This document shows, in pieces, positions 19,035-30,037 of a DNA stretch of 44,419 bases (position 1 is its first letter; each line of letters begins with the position of its first letter). The stretch is taken from IMG/VR virus record IMGVR_UViG_3300046543_000574, positions 1-44,419 of that record, one strand, 5' to 3'. The translations under genes were made by a program, and so were the position numbers. Below the pieces are notes generated by a model that saw nothing but the letters and a program-made list of their open reading frames with translations, was not told where the DNA came from and made no database searches. This DNA is from a virus.

Positions 19035-19232
19035 ATGGCCCAGCGATACCGGGTCACCTGGCCTCGCCCTGTGGATCTCGCCTGCGGCCAGATGGTCGCT
19101 TCAGGCGCAGTTACCAAGCGGGTGAAGCCAAGTGATCCACACGACAAGTGGTTGATCGATGAGGGACGGCTTGTGCTGCTGCCTCCGAAGCGTCAGCCCC
19201 GAAAAAGCACGAAACAGGAGGAGTCCAAGTGA
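19035..19232 (+). CDS. small tail-region protein (65 aa)
   Basis: ATG 19035 has CGGAGG upstream. It is a basic small protein starting MAQRYRVTWPRPVDLACGQM. The stop overlaps the GTG of the sheath gene at 19229. Comparable small genes often precede sheath genes in actinobacterial myophages. Function unknown. Confidence 0.6.
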   Translation: MAQRYRVTWPRPVDLACGQMVASGAVTKRVKPSDPHDKWLIDEGRLVLLPPKRQPRKSTKQEESK

Positions 19233-20650
19233 CACCGGCACCCACCGTCAAAGTCACCTCGGGGTCAGGCGCACCATCAACGTCGATCCCCACCGATACC
19301 GGGACGTGGTTCGTCACCGGAATCACCGAGCGGGGTCGCACCAACGCGCCCGTTCTGGTCAAAAACATCGCGGGATACGTCGCGGAGTACGGCGAACGGG
19401 TCTCCTACGGGTACCTCTATGACGCCCTGCAGACCTTCTTCGAAGAGGGCGGCAACCAGGCGTATGTCGGGCGAGCGGTTGGCCCCTCGCCAGTCGTCGC
19501 CACGATCACCGCGAAAAACGGCAGCTCGGAAAATACGCTGAAAATCTCAGCGGCCAGCGCGGGGGTCTACGGCAACAGCATCGCCGTCGTGATCGTGGGC
19601 GCAAGCACCACCCGCGTCTATCAGGTCAAATACAACGGCGTCGTCGTGGAGGAATCGCCCTCGTTCACGACCAACGCGGAAGCCGTGTCCTGGGCCGCTG
19701 GCTCGAGCTACGTGCGCTTCGAAGACCTCGGCAAAGGTCTCCCGTCTGCGGCGACCAAAGAACTCGCGTCGGGCACCGACGACCACGAAAACATCACCGA
19801 GACCCAGTGGTCCACGGCGCTCGCGCTGTTCGGAAAATCCCTCGGCCCCGGCCAGGTCTCCTCGCCAGGGAGGACGACTGCGGAAGCGCAGAAAAACCTC
19901 CTAACCCACGCCAGCACCTACAACCGCGTCGCGCTGCTTGACGGCACCGACACGGCGACGGTCGGCACCCTCACCGCGCAGGCGGCCACCCTGCGCGAAC
20001 AGTCCACGGCTCGCTACGGGGGTCTGTTCGCTCCCTGGGCGGTCATTCCGGGCCTGACCCTGGGGACAACCCGCACGGTGCCCTACTGCGCCGTACAGGC
20101 GGGCCTTACCGCTCGCTCAGACGGGGCCAGCGGCAACTCCAACCTCGCCATCGCGGGGGAGGAGCGGGGCGTCGCTCGGTACGCCACCGGCCTCTCGCAG
20201 GCTGGCTGGACTGAAACCGAACGCGGCACCCTCGCCGACGCAGGCGTCAACGTCGCCCGCGTTATCGGCGGCGCGGTCGTCACCTACGACGACCTCTCGC
20301 TGGTCAACGGCGTCGTGGACGACACCTACCTGCTGCTCTCCAACAACCGCTGCATCATGCAGATCAAGTCGGGAGCCAACGAAGTCGGTCGCAAGCACCT
20401 GTTCCGCCAGATCTCGCTCAACGAGATCGCGGACTTCGGCAACGACATCAACGGCGATGTCCTCCTGCCGCTGTTCGACAAGGAAGCCCTGTTCGGGGAG
20501 ACCCCCGAGGACGCCTACACGGTTCAGGTGAGCGATCCGGTCAACACCGAAAAAACCATCGGCGAAAAAAAGCTGAAGGCGAGCCTGTCGGTTGACATCA
20601 CCGGCTCGGCTCGAACTATCGAAATCGACGTGAATGTGGAGGCGAAATAA
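19229..20650 (+). CDS. tail sheath protein
   Basis: 473 aa from GTG 19229. Family features: N-terminal SIPTDTGTWFVTGITERGRT, the segment LYDALQTFFEEGGNQAYVGR (about 66-85), an inserted beta domain (about 90-170), and a C-terminal domain with EVGRKHLFRQISLNEI and final VDITGSARTIEIDVNV strands. It contracts around the tube to drive DNA injection, which makes this phage a myovirus type. Confidence 0.92.
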   Translation: MTPAPTVKVTSGSGAPSTSIPTDTGTWFVTGITERGRTNAPVLVKNIAGYVAEYGERVSYGYLYDALQTFFEEGGNQAYVGRAVGPSPVVATITAKNGSSENTLKISAASAGVYGNSIAVVIVGASTTRVYQVKYNGVVVEESPSFTTNAEAVSWAAGSSYVRFEDLGKGLPSAATKELASGTDDHENITETQWSTALALFGKSLGPGQVSSPGRTTAEAQKNLLTHASTYNRVALLDGTDTATVGTLTAQAATLREQSTARYGGLFAPWAVIPGLTLGTTRTVPYCAVQAGLTARSDGASGNSNLAIAGEERGVARYATGLSQAGWTETERGTLADAGVNVARVIGGAVVTYDDLSLVNGVVDDTYLLLSNNRCIMQIKSGANEVGRKHLFRQISLNEIADFGNDINGDVLLPLFDKEALFGETPEDAYTVQVSDPVNTEKTIGEKKLKASLSVDITGSARTIEIDVNVEAK

Positions 20651-21066: not shown

Positions 21067-21116
21067 GGTTCCACCGCCTAAGGCGACGCTAAAATGGCTG
21101 CTCTAGATACGAAAAT

Positions 21117-21146
21117 GCCCCCGCACAGTTTGAGGCTGTCGGGGGC
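21117..21146 (+). terminator. strong hairpin between tail tube and HNH genes
   Basis: Inverted repeat GCCCCCG-C-ACAG / CTGT-CGGGGGC: 7 + 4 paired bases with one bulged C and a 7-base loop. No T-run follows, so it is not a classical terminator. It may attenuate transcription or protect the mRNA. Its right arm could alternatively pair with CCCCCG at 21163-21168, just before the HNH start codon. Confidence 0.45.
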
Positions 21147-21168
21147 CGGACAACGGGAGGAACCCCCG

Positions 21169-21603
21169 ATGCCAGAGCAAGCCTACAAGCGGTGTGCGCG
21201 GTGCGGTGAGAGCAAGCCGCTCGATGATTTCAACCGCGACCGTGCAAAGAGTGATGGTCGCTGCGGATGCTGCCGTCCGTGCCACTCTCAGCGCACCGCC
21301 GAGTGGAAACGGGCGAACCCGGACCGCAAGGCCGCTACTAACAGACGGTGGAGGGCCAAGAACCCGGAGCGGATGCAGGCAAGTCGTGTTCGCGCAGAGG
21401 CGCGAAATCCGGAGAGGGCTCGAGCGAGAGCGAATTTGAGAAACGCGGTCTACGAAGGAAAGGTCGCAAAGCCCAACCGGTGCGAAGACTGTGGTGAGCA
21501 ATTCGAGAAGCATCGCCTACAGGGCCACCACGCCGATTACTCCAAGTTTTACGACGTGGACTGGCTCTGTCACGCCTGCCACGTCAAGCGTCACCACCCG
21601 TAA
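21169..21603 (+). CDS. HNH endonuclease (recombination-endonuclease-VII-like)
   Basis: 144 aa from ATG 21169 with GGGAGG upstream. An N-terminal zinc finger (CARCGESKPLDDF, then C...CRPC) is followed by an Arg-rich linker with repeated NPER/NPDR motifs. The nuclease core is CEDCGEQF...LQGHHADYSKFYDVDWLCHACH with a final RHH. It is inserted between tail tube and chaperone genes in the same direction, with its own hairpin leader, and is probably a free-standing mobile nuclease. Confidence 0.85.
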   Translation: MPEQAYKRCARCGESKPLDDFNRDRAKSDGRCGCCRPCHSQRTAEWKRANPDRKAATNRRWRAKNPERMQASRVRAEARNPERARARANLRNAVYEGKVAKPNRCEDCGEQFEKHRLQGHHADYSKFYDVDWLCHACHVKRHHP

Positions 21604-24122: not shown

Positions 24123-24796
24123 GCCCCAAAATCGCAAGAGCGCGAGTGGCGCAGGACGCAGGGATGCGCCTCCACATCGTTGCCCGGGAAGCTCACCTCG
24201 ACTTCTGGGTGGACATGGGGGACGGCCCGGCCACCCTCACAGGCGGCCTGGGCGGCTGGCAGACCGTTGAACGGATAGACGACGTAGCCCTGACCGATTG
24301 GGTCGGGCAGGGCCCGTTGACCCAGGACATCCCGGTAATGCTCGACGGCTACCCGGACGAATCGGTCGAACGCGACCTGAAGAACATCCTCGCCCTGGGC
24401 CGCGACACCGAAGGCCCCCCGCCGGTCTTTGAAATCGACGGGCCGATCTACTTCCCTGAAGCGCATTGGGTGCTGCCGGATGGAGGAATCGCCCTCGACC
24501 CGGGCAGCACGATCCGCTCCGACAACGGAACGATCCTGCGCCAAGCTCTCACGCTCTCCGTCCTCGAGTACGTGCCACCCGATGAGGTCCGGTTGCGGGG
24601 TAAGAAGCGCCACAAGGACCGATTCGGGGTTGCCGACAACCGGGCGCTGACTGTCGTTACGAAGCCCGGGGACAACCTGGCGAAGATCGCGGCGCGGGAG
24701 TTCGGAGACTGGCGCAAATGGACCCTGATTGGGCCTAAAAATTCCATCGCTGATCCTCACCGCATCCTCCCGGCCGGTCGCGTCATCCGGCTATGA
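24119..24796 (+). CDS. LysM-type baseplate / tail protein
   Basis: 225 aa from ATG 24119 (ATGA overlap). The C-terminal 45 residues form a LysM-like domain (TVVTKPGDNLAKIAAREFGD, then WTLIGPKNSI, and ILPAGRVIRL). The N-terminal 150 residues are beta-rich. In contractile-tail phages a LysM protein follows the tape measure and links the tube initiator to the hub. It probably acts in the assembled baseplate. Confidence 0.82.
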   Translation: MSPKIARARVAQDAGMRLHIVAREAHLDFWVDMGDGPATLTGGLGGWQTVERIDDVALTDWVGQGPLTQDIPVMLDGYPDESVERDLKNILALGRDTEGPPPVFEIDGPIYFPEAHWVLPDGGIALDPGSTIRSDNGTILRQALTLSVLEYVPPDEVRLRGKKRHKDRFGVADNRALTVVTKPGDNLAKIAAREFGDWRKWTLIGPKNSIADPHRILPAGRVIRL

Positions 24797-26739
24797 GCGA
24801 CGCCAAGCGCGTTCAGGGCACAGCCTCGGACATTGGAGACCTCACCCTTCGCAGCGGCAGGACGGTCAAGGACGTCGCGATCGTGGTCGGCGGCGGAATC
24901 ACTCCGACGCCGATGCTCACCCGCACCACCGAAGGCGCGAGCACGGTCGCGGTTCCGATCTACGACCCGAACCTGAGCTTCTTGCAGCACTCGCTACTTG
25001 CCGAAAAGTTCGACGCCGAGCTGGACGGCCTGCACTTCCGCTACGTCGGACTGAGCAAGACGGGCAAGAATCTCAGCCTCACGCTCGAGGACCGCGACGT
25101 TGCGAAGATCCGCGAACTCACCGGGCCGAAACGAGCCTTCCGCGAACCCAACGGCGCAGGCTCCAAGGGCACCACCCGCGCCGAGTTCGTCAAGTCCCTG
25201 GTCAACGAGGCCAACCCGTCCCTTGACTTCTTCTGTCCCCAGCTTCACGCCAAGCAGCCGATTGAAAAGAAAGCCCAGGGGGCGAAGGCCAAAGAAGAAT
25301 CGAAAGCCAACCGGGGCAAAGGCGTCGGAGCTTCCGGGGGCAAGGTCAAGGGCCACGCGGCCGACGCCGAACAGACCGAAATGGTAGACCGCGCCCTGCG
25401 CGTGGCCGAGTCTCTGAGCGCCCCGCTCAAGGCCCGTGTCGCCCTCGTCGCTGCCCTAATTGACGAGTCCGAATGCCGCAACACCCACAGCGGCACCGGC
25501 TCCAGCGTCGGCGTCCTACAGCTTCTCGCCGAACATGGCTCGCTCTCCGAACGGCTCGACGTGGAGCATTGCGTCCACCTGTTCCTGACCGAGGGCTTCA
25601 CCGGAGCAGGCGGGGCAATCAAGCTCTCCAACGCCCACCCAACTTGGTCGGCGGCGGAAGTCGCCAATCAGGTCCAGGGACCAGCGGCGGGGGCCAGTGT
25701 CTACGCGCCCTACCAGACCGAAGCGCGGGAATGGGTCGAAGGCTTCGAAGGCGGGGAAACGTCGGGCTCCATCGAAGTCACCGAGCCCTACGAGTTCAAG
25801 GTCGGGGCCAACGAGACCTACTGGGCCGCGATCCAGCGCCTTGCAAAAGAGGTCAACTGGCGGGCGTTTATCGTCGCCGGCCGCTTCTTCTTCATCGACG
25901 AGATCGAACTGATCCGGGGCGAAGTGCGGCTTGCGATCGACCAGGACACCGAGGGCATCGAAACCGTCGACTTCGAATACGACACCGGAATGCCGGTCAC
26001 CGAGGTCACGGTCACCGCTCGCGTCAAGAAGTGGGGCGTTCCTCCCGGCGCCGTGGTGACGGTGGCTGGCTACGGCCCCGCGAGCTTTGGCAGCGGAGAC
26101 GCTCCCCCGAAGGACAAGAAAGCCCCAGCCATCGCCTCGGCCGTCAAAGCCGCGACCCATGAAGGCAAGGGCCGATACCTCGTCACCTCGATCGAAAGCC
26201 CTCTCGGCGGAGATACGGAATCTCGCCTCGCCACGGTCACGCTGAAAAAGCCGACCGCGCCGCTCCCTGAGCCTGCGGCCACGACGAAAACCGTTGAAGG
26301 TCTCGCCGCATTGGAAGGTTCCGCAGCGGGGACCGCTCCCGCCCAGGAAATGCTCCGGGCCGCTGAAGCCGAGGCAGCGAAGCAGCGGAGGTACCTGTGG
26401 GATGGAGGTCACGATGCCCTCTTCACCGGCCCCTACGACTGTTCGGGCTTCGTCTCCTTCCTGCTCCATGTCGGCGGTTTCCTCAACGCGCCAACGAACA
26501 CCACCGGCCTTGCTGCTTGGGGCGAAGCGGGGGCGGGCAGCGAAATCACCGTTTACGTCAAGACCAGCGGGGACTCCGAAGAAGAACACACCGCGATCAA
26601 GATCGGCAAAGACGTGTTCGAGTCGGGGGGCGGGGGAGAGAACACGAACCCGAACGGTGGCGCCGGCCACGTCGACCCCTCCCAGGTCAAGACCTTCCTG
26701 ACGCAGTTCAACGTCAAGAGACATCCGAAAGGTTTCTGA
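24793..26739 (+). CDS. baseplate hub protein with two cell-wall hydrolase domains
   Basis: 648 aa. The N-terminus (1-150) and a later part (about 330-480) are hub-like (gp27/gpD type). Between them, about 195-320, is a lysozyme or transglycosylase-like domain with LIDESECRN (E225/E227), SSVGVLQLLAEHG and WSAAEVANQVQGP. The C-terminal 110 residues look like NlpC/P60, with YDCSGFVSFLL (C550) and EEEHTAIKI (H599). The protein probably opens the peptidoglycan during injection. Two different hydrolases in one hub protein are uncommon. Confidence 0.82.
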   Translation: MSDAKRVQGTASDIGDLTLRSGRTVKDVAIVVGGGITPTPMLTRTTEGASTVAVPIYDPNLSFLQHSLLAEKFDAELDGLHFRYVGLSKTGKNLSLTLEDRDVAKIRELTGPKRAFREPNGAGSKGTTRAEFVKSLVNEANPSLDFFCPQLHAKQPIEKKAQGAKAKEESKANRGKGVGASGGKVKGHAADAEQTEMVDRALRVAESLSAPLKARVALVAALIDESECRNTHSGTGSSVGVLQLLAEHGSLSERLDVEHCVHLFLTEGFTGAGGAIKLSNAHPTWSAAEVANQVQGPAAGASVYAPYQTEAREWVEGFEGGETSGSIEVTEPYEFKVGANETYWAAIQRLAKEVNWRAFIVAGRFFFIDEIELIRGEVRLAIDQDTEGIETVDFEYDTGMPVTEVTVTARVKKWGVPPGAVVTVAGYGPASFGSGDAPPKDKKAPAIASAVKAATHEGKGRYLVTSIESPLGGDTESRLATVTLKKPTAPLPEPAATTKTVEGLAALEGSAAGTAPAQEMLRAAEAEAAKQRRYLWDGGHDALFTGPYDCSGFVSFLLHVGGFLNAPTNTTGLAAWGEAGAGSEITVYVKTSGDSEEEHTAIKIGKDVFESGGGGENTNPNGGAGHVDPSQVKTFLTQFNVKRHPKGF

Positions 26740-26741
26740 GC

Positions 26742-27494
26742 GTGCCCGACCTAAGCAAGCTCTCCGGCGAGTCGGTACAGCTCCCACCCGGCCAGGTCTT
26801 CGAGGCCGTGGTCAACGAAGACGCCACGAAAGCAGGCCAGCTCGTTACCTGCACGATTCCGAGCGTCGATCCCTCGGCAGCGACGGACCCCTGCCCCTGG
26901 ATGCCCTACACGACCGAGGCGGGCGCCTTCTACCCGAAGAAGGGCGACCGAGCGAAGGTCTCCGAGAACGGGGACGGCCCGGGGGTCATCCTGACCTGGT
27001 GGCCCGCGGCTGACGCCGTGCCAGATGTTCCGAGACCTCTCACCCCATACACGATTGAGATTTTCGGCCCGGAGCCTCGCGCCGCCGAGGCTCTCGAGGG
27101 CGATCTTTCGATCACGTCCTACGCCGCGCCCGGGTCTGCTTTCAGCTCCTCTTTCCAGCCCCTTGACTCGATGGTCACCGGCACAGTCGTCAGAGCCTTT
27201 TGGGACGTTGCCTGGAATTCGCTGGGCGGCACGGCTTGTGGCCTCCAGTTGGTCGGCTTCAAATCGCCTATCGGTGAAATCCCCGGGGAATTCTTCCCAA
27301 TCACAGAACTGACCGGCCAGTCAAAAATTACGCCGGTTCACGAAACCCCGATCGTCACCGCTGCGGTTGCAGCCCTCTGGAATGAAACCCGCAAAGACGG
27401 GCTCGCCCGCAACCTGGGCCACCGCCTGAAATCAGACGGCGTGGTCAAACCCCTGGTCTTCATGTCGCGAGTCGTGATGGTGCTGGCCACCTAG
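26742..27494 (+). CDS. baseplate OB-fold protein with C-terminal extra domain
   Basis: 250 aa from GTG 26742. Residues 15-90 have the strands of an OB-fold hub or spike protein: GQVFEAVVNED, GQLVTCTIPSVDP, GAFYPKKGDRAKVSENGDG and VILTWWP. Residues 110-250 form another beta-rich domain of unknown type. Its place between hub and gp25 fits a spike or hub-extension protein. A receptor-binding role of the second domain is possible. Confidence 0.65.
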   Translation: MPDLSKLSGESVQLPPGQVFEAVVNEDATKAGQLVTCTIPSVDPSAATDPCPWMPYTTEAGAFYPKKGDRAKVSENGDGPGVILTWWPAADAVPDVPRPLTPYTIEIFGPEPRAAEALEGDLSITSYAAPGSAFSSSFQPLDSMVTGTVVRAFWDVAWNSLGGTACGLQLVGFKSPIGEIPGEFFPITELTGQSKITPVHETPIVTAAVAALWNETRKDGLARNLGHRLKSDGVVKPLVFMSRVVMVLAT

Positions 27495-27519
27495 CTCGAC
27501 CCTCGAAAGGAGCATCGCC

Positions 27520-28263
27520 GTGACCGCCATTCCTCATTTTCGTGTGCCGCTTGCGCTGCGGACGACCGGCCCGGCTCCCAATCTCTTCACGGGAACTCCA
27601 TCGGGGGAAATCGACACCTACCGCACCGCCAAAGGCTCGACGGTTACCGATGATCCTGCGGTCTACTTCGGCACCGCGCCCGGGACCAAAGTCGTCACGG
27701 CGAACGCCAAAATCCAGGAAGGCGCTGACAGCGGCAACGTAATCGAGGTTGAGGCCGGGGTCACCTATCACGTCTCAGCCCGCGTACTGGGCAACGCGGG
27801 CGGGGAGTTGCTCTACATGCTCGCTGGCGACGAAACGATCGGCGTCAAATCTCAGCTCATCACGGCGAGCAAAGCGTGGCAGCTACTTGAGCTTGAGTAC
27901 ACCCCGACACTCTCGGGCACCACCGGCTTCTCGGTCATTACTCAGATCAAAGCGGGCTACACGTTCTGGGTGGACGATCTGCGCTTTGATGGCGCCGCGC
28001 CCTCGGAGTTCGCCACGGTCGAGCAGGACTCCATCGAGGAGATCGGGGATTGCGTCGAAGCAGCGCTCCGCACCCCGGTCGGCTCTCGGATCGACGCACC
28101 CGAATACGGCGTCCCGGACGAGACCTTTAACCAGCTCGGCCCCAACCCTTCCGCAGAGGTCTACCTAGCCGCCGTTGCGGCCGTGGAGCCCCGTGCACAT
28201 CTAGTTGGAGAGGCAGAGATCGAAGCCATGACAGAGCGCATCTCCATCAGGTCGGCACCGTGA
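27520..28263 (+). CDS. gp25-like baseplate wedge with inserted carbohydrate-binding-like domain
   Basis: 247 aa from GTG 27520 (AAAGGAG upstream). Residues 1-18 (PHFRVPLALRTTG) and 164-247 (TVEQDSIEEIGDCVEAALRT, then PVGSRIDAPEYG) are the two parts of a T4 gp25-type wedge protein, which is normally continuous and about 110-140 aa. Between them, about 20-163, is a beta-sandwich-like domain. It resembles CBM_4_9-type modules: NLFTGTPSG at its start, YHVSARVLGNAGGELLYML, WQLLELEYTPTLSGT, and FWVDDLRFDG at its end. The wedge role is firm; sugar binding is inferred. Confidence 0.8.
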   Translation: MTAIPHFRVPLALRTTGPAPNLFTGTPSGEIDTYRTAKGSTVTDDPAVYFGTAPGTKVVTANAKIQEGADSGNVIEVEAGVTYHVSARVLGNAGGELLYMLAGDETIGVKSQLITASKAWQLLELEYTPTLSGTTGFSVITQIKAGYTFWVDDLRFDGAAPSEFATVEQDSIEEIGDCVEAALRTPVGSRIDAPEYGVPDETFNQLGPNPSAEVYLAAVAAVEPRAHLVGEAEIEAMTERISIRSAP

Positions 28264-29417
28264 CCACATTCGTCGCCATCGAGGCGGAAGCCGACGCCAG
28301 CACCCTCGAACAGGAATCGATCGCGCTCCTCGAATCCGCCTTTGCGGGCTGGACCCCGGCCGCTGGCGGTCTCGACGTATGGCTCATCAAAGCCTTCTCG
28401 CGCATCGGCGCATCGATCTTCGACCAAGCCACCCTGGTCAGCACCGGAGCCTTCAAGAAGTTCGGGGAATCGGTCGTCAACGTCCCCCCGATTCAGGCCG
28501 CTCCCGCCACGGCGGAAAGCAAATGGACGATGGTGGACAACGCGGGCTACACGGTCCCCGCAGGCACCCAGGTCGCCATCGAAAAGGATGGGCAGACCAG
28601 CCTCGGGTTCATCAGCACCGAAGCCGTCGAAATCGCTCCGGGCGCGACCACGGGCACGATCTCACTCGCTGCGGTTGAACCGGGCGAGGAAGGCAACGGC
28701 CTCTCCGCCGATCCCAAACTGATCGACGCTCTGGCCTACGTCAGCAAAATCGAACTGGAAGGCGTCACGGCCAACGGAGTAGACGAGGAGCCAGAAGACG
28801 CCTACCTCAACCGCCTAGTTGAAACGCTCCAGCTTCTCTCGCTCTCGCTGATTGTCGGTCGAGACTTCGAGATCGACGCAAGGGCCGTGGCGGGGATTGC
28901 ACGGGCGAAGTGCTTGGAGGCATACAACGCCAGCGAATCGAAAGAAGAGGCCCTCTGCGTCTCGGTCTACCCGGTCGATGACGCGGGAGCCAAACTCAGC
29001 GCGGGGATCAAGGAAGCCCTGCAAGAACGGCAGGAGGCGAAGGTGCCCTCTGGCGTTTTGGTCTTCGTGGCTGATCCGACGTACACGAAAATCAAAGTCA
29101 AAACGAAAATCGTGGTCGAAACCGGCTTTGACTCCGCGACCGCCATCGCCGCCGTGAAAGCCCGTCTCGAAGAATATTTGGCCCCCGCGAACTGGGGCAT
29201 CCCCTCCCAGGGCGATGCCTCAACCAGCGGCGGGTGGATCAATCAAACGAAGGTCTATCGCTTCGAGCTTGTCTCCGAGGTTGATCGAGTCGGCGGAGTG
29301 GATCGGGTGGCGACGCTGGAATTAGTCAAAGAAGGTGGCTCGCTCGGCACCGCTGACATCACCCTCGAAGGCGTGGTGCCGCTGACCGAAGCGGGCTCGA
29401 TCACGGTCGAAGTCTGA
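28260..29417 (+). CDS. baseplate J-like protein
   Basis: 385 aa from GTG 28260 (GTGA overlap). The Baseplate_J pattern is clear: IFDQATLVSTGAFKKFGESV (about 59-78), then a beta domain with VPAGTQVAIE, AVEPGEEGNGLSADP (about 140-154), EEPEDAYLNRLVETLQ (about 178-193) and the C-terminal domain. It is the wedge component that holds baseplate triplexes, next to gp25 and gpI as in P2-like and T4-like baseplates. Confidence 0.92.
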   Translation: MTTFVAIEAEADASTLEQESIALLESAFAGWTPAAGGLDVWLIKAFSRIGASIFDQATLVSTGAFKKFGESVVNVPPIQAAPATAESKWTMVDNAGYTVPAGTQVAIEKDGQTSLGFISTEAVEIAPGATTGTISLAAVEPGEEGNGLSADPKLIDALAYVSKIELEGVTANGVDEEPEDAYLNRLVETLQLLSLSLIVGRDFEIDARAVAGIARAKCLEAYNASESKEEALCVSVYPVDDAGAKLSAGIKEALQERQEAKVPSGVLVFVADPTYTKIKVKTKIVVETGFDSATAIAAVKARLEEYLAPANWGIPSQGDASTSGGWINQTKVYRFELVSEVDRVGGVDRVATLELVKEGGSLGTADITLEGVVPLTEAGSITVEV

Positions 29418-30037
29418 TGCCTGAAGAAGGAACGCAACTCTGGGAACAGCTTTACGACGCGACAGGTTTTCACCGCGACGACGACACGGACGGCTCCCTG
29501 CGGAAGTTCTGCGAAGCCCTCTGCGACCCAACGCAGCCGGTCTATGACCTGGTGCGCGAACGGGAAGGGCAGGCTGGCTGGACGATCCTGCTGGACCCTG
29601 ACGAGTGTCCCGCCCAGTTCCTGCCCTACCTGGCTCAGTACGTCGGTGTCGTTGTCGTCCCAGAGCAAACCGAGCAGCAGCTACGCGACGAGATCCGCGA
29701 GCCCACTGGGTGGAAGCGCGGGCAGCCTGAAGCGGTGCGGATCGCCACCCGGCGGGGCCTCACCGGGGAAAACCCGCTGGTAATCATCCATGAGCGGACG
29801 CCGGCGCCGGGCGAAACCTATATCCGCACGTTGCTCAGCCAGACCCCGAACCCGACTGCCACCGCCGCGACGATCCGTGCCGCTCTCCCTGCGGGGGAGA
29901 GGCTGTCATACGAAGCGATCGAAGGCGTGACCGTCGCCGACGTGTCTGCCTCAGCGAAATGGACGACCGTGGCCGACCTCGCCGCGGCCTTCTCGTCGGT
30001 CAAAGCCTTGGCCGAAATCCTCCCCTCTGAACTGTAA
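29417..30037 (+). CDS. baseplate protein gpI-like (tail protein I)
   Basis: 206 aa; ATG 29417 overlaps the J stop. Features: an N-terminal helix, YDLVREREGQAGWTILLDPD (about 43-62), FLPYLAQYVGV, EIREPTGWKRGQPEAVRIAT and a small C-terminal beta domain with ERTPAPGETYI. This is the actinophage type of P2 gpI. The J-I order is conserved in contractile-tail phages. It usually anchors fibres. Confidence 0.82.
   Translation: MPEEGTQLWEQLYDATGFHRDDDTDGSLRKFCEALCDPTQPVYDLVREREGQAGWTILLDPDECPAQFLPYLAQYVGVVVVPEQTEQQLRDEIREPTGWKRGQPEAVRIATRRGLTGENPLVIIHERTPAPGETYIRTLLSQTPNPTATAATIRAALPAGERLSYEAIEGVTVADVSASAKWTTVADLAAAFSSVKALAEILPSEL

Follow-up and report, generated by a model that had tools for sequence, protein, structure and literature searches.

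Judged by its sequence, the only gp25 of this phage found in the window (the whole 44,419-nucleotide stretch of DNA that was analysed), i.e. its BW1 or sheath-initiator wedge protein, is split in the turn of its N-terminal beta-hairpin by an in-frame module with a predicted beta-sandwich fold of the CBM4/16 type. We consider it probable that the junction of sheath and baseplate bears six copies of this module and that it binds a glycan of the host surface, the binding, the exposure and the assembly being what we infer. Proteins of the gp25 kind are small and couple the baseplate to the sheath; they are conserved in T6SS and R-pyocins as well as in phage tails, and represent the near-universal sheath initiators of contractile injection machines. 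The gene, its parts and its neighbours are given below (window positions).

19229..20650, plus strand: putative tail sheath gene (contractile tail), from length, position and gene order; no Pfam match
24793..26739, plus strand: hub (gpD-like) protein, 648 aa, from synteny; no Pfam match
26706..27494, plus strand: spike-like gene 5' of gp25, start assumed, from synteny and phmmer across loci
27507..27512, plus strand: AAGGAG, Shine-Dalgarno-like, 5' of the GTG start, from sequence
27520-28263, plus strand: gp25 gene, one open frame with a GTG start, 247 aa
27520..27558, plus strand: N-terminal strand of gp25, residues 1-13, MTAIPHFRVPLAL, from the plain-gp25 profile alignment and the PHFATPFRL match in sister L002
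27559..28002, plus strand: inserted CBM4/16/22-like beta-sandwich, residues 14-161 (+/- 2), from Pfam and predicted structure
27682-27945, plus strand: Pfam CBM_4_9 match within the insert, residues 55-142
28003..28260, plus strand: gp25 core, residues 162-247 (second hairpin strand, helices and EPR motif), from HMM and PHROG
28186..28194, plus strand: EPR motif, residues 223-225, from protein alignment
28260..29417, plus strand: Baseplate J (BW2), next gene 3' of gp25, Pfam Baseplate_J 4.6e-27
29417..30037, plus strand: gpI / Tail_P2_I (BW3), plain in the window, Pfam 3.5e-7

Pfam and synteny place the genes in the order spike, gp25, J, I, and the wedge order W-J-I of P2-type contractile tails is thus the same in the window. 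The arrangement of the putative sheath with tube, TMP, LysM, hub, J and I is kept in L045, L047, L049, L050 and L052 (kin phages, here and below, are IMG/VR contigs retrieved with J, gp25 and hub queries). In the spike-like gene the first ~108 aa are conserved and the remainder is variable (phmmer across loci). For J, the closest named phages are those of Arthrobacter and Gordonia, at an identity of only about 25%. By eye, an HNH-endonuclease-like ORF (21094-21603, CARCGES...CHACHVKRHH) was noticed within the tail operon, where it separates the tube gene from the tail gene that follows, and the hub (24793-26739) was seen to carry an NlpC/P60-like C-terminal stretch (YDCSGFV), apparently replaced in the hub of L027 (2570-4627) by a different peptidase-like end (HFDHVHFG).

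The split of gp25 was assessed with an HMM built from nine uninterrupted relatives, from which the window protein was left out. Positions 17-100 of this plain-gp25 profile align to residues 162-245 (E 1.4e-39) and positions 3-14 to residues 2-13 (i-E 0.04, insignificant alone, but collinear and correctly placed), and no other piece of the protein was aligned. As these two matches flank the gap, we conclude that ~148 residues were inserted in a turn of ~2 residues, with borders at residues 14-161 by the profile or about 15-163 by the alignment. The proposal of the earlier note that the N- and C-terminal parts belong to one gp25 is thereby borne out, and its extent for the intervening part (20-163) is close to ours. 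The string IPHFRVPL occurs once across all frames of the window, in which no second gp25 was found. Baseplate and baseplate wedge PHROGs match residues 163-228 (E 1.3e-4 and 7.8e-4), and the EPR motif is nearly invariant among 19 aligned gp25 proteins and also present in Wphi gpW. The window protein (P0001) stays below the threshold of Pfam PF04965, which the insert-free gp25 of L002 passes (29.0 vs 27.2 bits), and an AF2 model of the whole 247-aa chimera reached a pLDDT of 51, too low for the geometry of the hairpin.

An internal GTG near 27970 could conceivably serve as the start of a short gp25, although no clear ribosome-binding site was seen 5' of it. The insert lies in a clean frame, is devoid of stops, and has a GC content by codon position (0.59/0.50/0.77) resembling that of the flanking coding DNA. 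That the gene is an assembly or frame artefact, in which gp25 was fused by the assembly to a fragment of a different tail gene, could be argued from the metagenomic nature of the contig and from the exact chimera having been observed once; nevertheless, we find this scarcely credible, since both joins are in frame, gp25 is intact on either side, the synteny is normal, and chimeras of this kind recur in four further samples, on the contigs L008, L011, L015 and L052.

The nearest insert-free alleles are ~100 aa long (e.g., L002, MATRTPHFATPFRLSGSSFAVIEQDSAEEIEDCV...), and the sister allele L002 (103 aa) reads MATRTPHFATPFRL-SGSSFAVIEQDSAEEIEDCVEV..., with no insert, in a phage whose J protein is 57% identical to that of the window. 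Plain gp25 proteins were recovered from L002, L009, L012, L013, L016, L045, L047, L060 and L063, and because they lack the insert it does not belong to the regular make-up of gp25. One of the kin proteins with a fused module (P0002) matches gpW of phage Wphi/P2 at 33% identity, and the place of insertion apparently corresponds, in the P2-type Wphi gpW, to the turn in YLGMNRSDGLTVTD. The window gene has in common with the gp25 / P2 gpW / TssE family (PF04965) a core of ~85 aa with the EPR motif and the spike-gp25-J-I order, and differs from it by ~148 extra residues in the turn of the N-terminal hairpin.

The insert itself is predicted to be a beta-sandwich of the CBM4/CBM16 type and may bind sugar. 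Pfam CBM_4_9 matches the whole protein at E 2.9e-4 and the insert alone at E 7.7e-5; its 23.5 bits fall slightly short of the curated cut-off of 25.9. BLASTP paired the insert with gpI of L009 (33% identity over 138 columns, E 6e-8), and a related copy of the same domain family occurs in gpI of L060; a profile of these three sequences gave, as its four best PDB hits, xylanase CBM4-2 chains (weak, E 0.03-0.25). The AlphaFold2 model of the insert (three sequences) had a mean pLDDT of 61; insert residues 61-120, all of them beta, reached about 80, and confidence was low in the first third (first 50 residues). Foldseek placed CBM4-2 and CBM16 chains on top (E 5e-6 to 2e-5), and VIA returned mostly CBM4/CBM16/CBM22 chains (Z 9-10, about 10). 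Hence, the look of a CBM_4_9-type sandwich that had been noticed in the letters agrees with the predicted structure (AF2 model, compared by Foldseek and VIA), and the insert, absent from plain alleles, did not turn out to be a known component of gp25. The CBM4/CBM16/CBM22 modules of bacterial xylanases and glucanases share with the insert the predicted sandwich fold and a weak sequence similarity, in contrast to which the insert is only ~10-19% identical to them and sits in a phage structural protein. Foldseek also listed bacterial toxins, whose receptor-binding domains have a sandwich of this general form, and a shared sandwich fold by itself says nothing on function.

Comparison of the kin sequences indicates that the turn of the N-terminal hairpin is re-used as a site for carbohydrate modules. 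In the gp25 of L011, VPHFSYPLRL and KLVTVEQDS flank a Laminin_G_3 domain (Pfam 1.6e-17) at the turn used in the window, and the distant relative L052 has a LamG domain (Pfam 1e-18) at the same turn, between APHFDIPFRF and AAVVEQNTFEE; this LamG/concanavalin-like domain is unrelated to the CBM-like insert. In two other phages, enzyme-like regions precede gp25: the 673-aa protein of L008 (1975-3993) consists of a LamG domain (1.9e-17) and a GH26-like region (E 0.001, below the cut-off) followed by a complete gp25, and the 647-aa protein of L015 (2315-4255) has a GH26 domain (2.7e-8) ahead of gp25, its first ~195 aa being without an assigned domain. We note that in L008 and L015 depolymerase-type enzymes share one polypeptide with the sheath-initiator wedge protein. 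The view of the earlier note that adhesion modules may be placed on the wedge ring itself is strengthened, at the level of sequence, by the LamG domains at the same turn (two phages) and by the GH26 fusions (two more). Tentatively, the hairpin turn of gp25 may be seen as a re-usable mount, on which, in this uncultivated phage lineage, unrelated glycan-binding domains were repeatedly placed, with entire GH26-type hydrolases joined to gp25 besides; contact with receptor or capsule would then be coupled directly to the holder of the first sheath ring, and not solely by way of fibres on BW3.

In the J tree, the clade of 13 members (support 100/100) comprises four with a modified gp25 and nine with a plain one, while among the more distant rows modification is confined to L052 (1/14). 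L028 (LamG insert; same contig as L011) and L029 (plain gp25) are sisters (support 100/99), and L030 and L027, which fall together with the window phage, have plain genes; these patterns therefore point to recent and repeated gains and losses or to whole-gene exchange, which are alike compatible with the tree. Such patchiness (as in the L028/L029 pair) would suit a neutral or fast-exchanged passenger of recombination in the baseplate operon that has little present function. We deem this improbable, given the clean frame without stops, the neighbour-like coding composition and the recurrence of modules that are all of carbohydrate type. IMG/VR scans with P0001 and with its insert yielded no close relatives, and two GTDB genome scans with J and gp25 yielded no prophage. 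Across 50,697 annotated phage records searched by tblastn (P0001 with E up to 1, P0002 and P0003), none combined gp25 with an extra module: no P0001 hit spanned more than 40% of its length, and P0003 gave no hit at all. The gp25 core of L002 likewise gave zero phage matches in tblastn against phage records.

We reason that a CBM4/16-type beta-sandwich, having entered in frame the turn of the N-terminal hairpin, would still allow the gp25 fold to assemble, because the core and the EPR motif are intact; with assembly retained, six copies of the module per baseplate would thus be exposed at the sheath-baseplate junction, where they may bind a glycan on the host surface. There, the module could supplement the fibres as an accessory adhesin, or serve as an anchor between baseplate and wall while the sheath fires; by analogy with Vp4 Gp119, the accessory adhesin is the simplest reading. 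While the split gp25, the empty sister allele, the predicted CBM-type fold and the re-use of the site are established from sequence and the models built on it, copy number and a role in adsorption are put forward here as presumed properties.

Phage-tail beta-sandwich domains can be purely structural, and the main rival to an adhesin is a structural or decoration sandwich that packs on the sheath, BW3 or the N-termini of fibres and stabilises the junction with no sugar binding. The BW1 of known machines locks the (BW2)2-BW3 bundle and takes up the arms of the first sheath ring, while RBPs usually bind BW3 (PMC10811340); in phage Milano, BW1 touches the sheath, BW3 and the tail-spike arms, and the arms meet BW1 and sheath above the plane of the baseplate (PMC10811340). 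The position of gp25 near the sheath, and not at the periphery, counts against the adhesin, and the contacts of Milano BW1 at this junction suit a packing role. So do the frequent occurrence of CBM-like folds as non-catalytic spacers and the fact that no ligand residues were identified in the insert (its alignment to the PDB hit begins past the N-terminal part, and no ligand-contact residues are assignable from it). Nonetheless, we hold a purely structural sandwich to be unlikely: the modules differ in fold (CBM4/16-like and LamG, with some GH26 fusions besides), so that carbohydrate, rather than a packing surface, is their common factor, and sister gp25 proteins exist without any insert.

The BW1 of Milano is too divergent for the profile; by eye, its Cys41 closes a strand that leads into a GQG turn, maybe that of this hairpin (suggestive only). 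Cys41 of Milano BW1 is disulfide-bonded to the tail-spike arm.

Returning to the adhesin, sugar-binding modules on a conserved baseplate ring protein are found in the evolved Dit of lactic-acid-bacteria siphophages, which has in common with the window gp25 the location of such modules (putative in gp25) on a baseplate and differs in belonging to non-contractile tails and in being another protein with another fold. CBMs on myophage baseplates, including the wedge protein BW3, were reported in 2024 (PMC11406892). The CBM-bearing BW3 of Vp4 (Gp119) decorates host cells, and its CBM-less homologue does not (PMC11406892). Both Gp119 and the window gp25 are myophage wedge proteins with added CBM folds (predicted in gp25) and have a homologue without them in a relative; however, Gp119 is BW3, the usual place of receptor-binding parts, whereas the window protein is BW1, the sheath initiator, and cell binding was shown for Gp119 only. 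A CBM on a wedge protein is therefore already known, while on gp25 it is apparently new, as the open-access papers searched describe none. If true, a natural loop that accepts domains of 150-220 residues would make adhesion or depolymerase modules possible on the trigger itself, engineers of contractile particles would gain an insertion site tested by evolution, and the influence of receptor contact by BW1 on sheath firing would become directly testable.

The entire wedge operon is modular. In L009, the CBM of gpI lies between ALGWWAKEDEN and the helix LLRTAAAWVETLLDPV, two flanks that are nearly continuous in the plain gpI of L024, and gpI (BW3) of L031 (6438-8339) has an N-terminal LamG domain and a polysaccharide lyase (PF14099).

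Several minor features were also seen in this operon. The gpI of L049 has, by eye, a sandwich-like insert, and the spike-like protein of L029 (2342-4813) is fused to a pectate-lyase-like right-handed beta-helix. J measures about 459-464 aa in L024, L045 and L063 (most kin 385-393 aa), the extra part being near the C-terminus. Lastly, ~2-2.6 kb of additional sequence follows J in L045 (9928-12515), L047 (9619-11671) and L063 (6383-8878), located between J and I in the former two and followed by a LamG-bearing ORF in L063.
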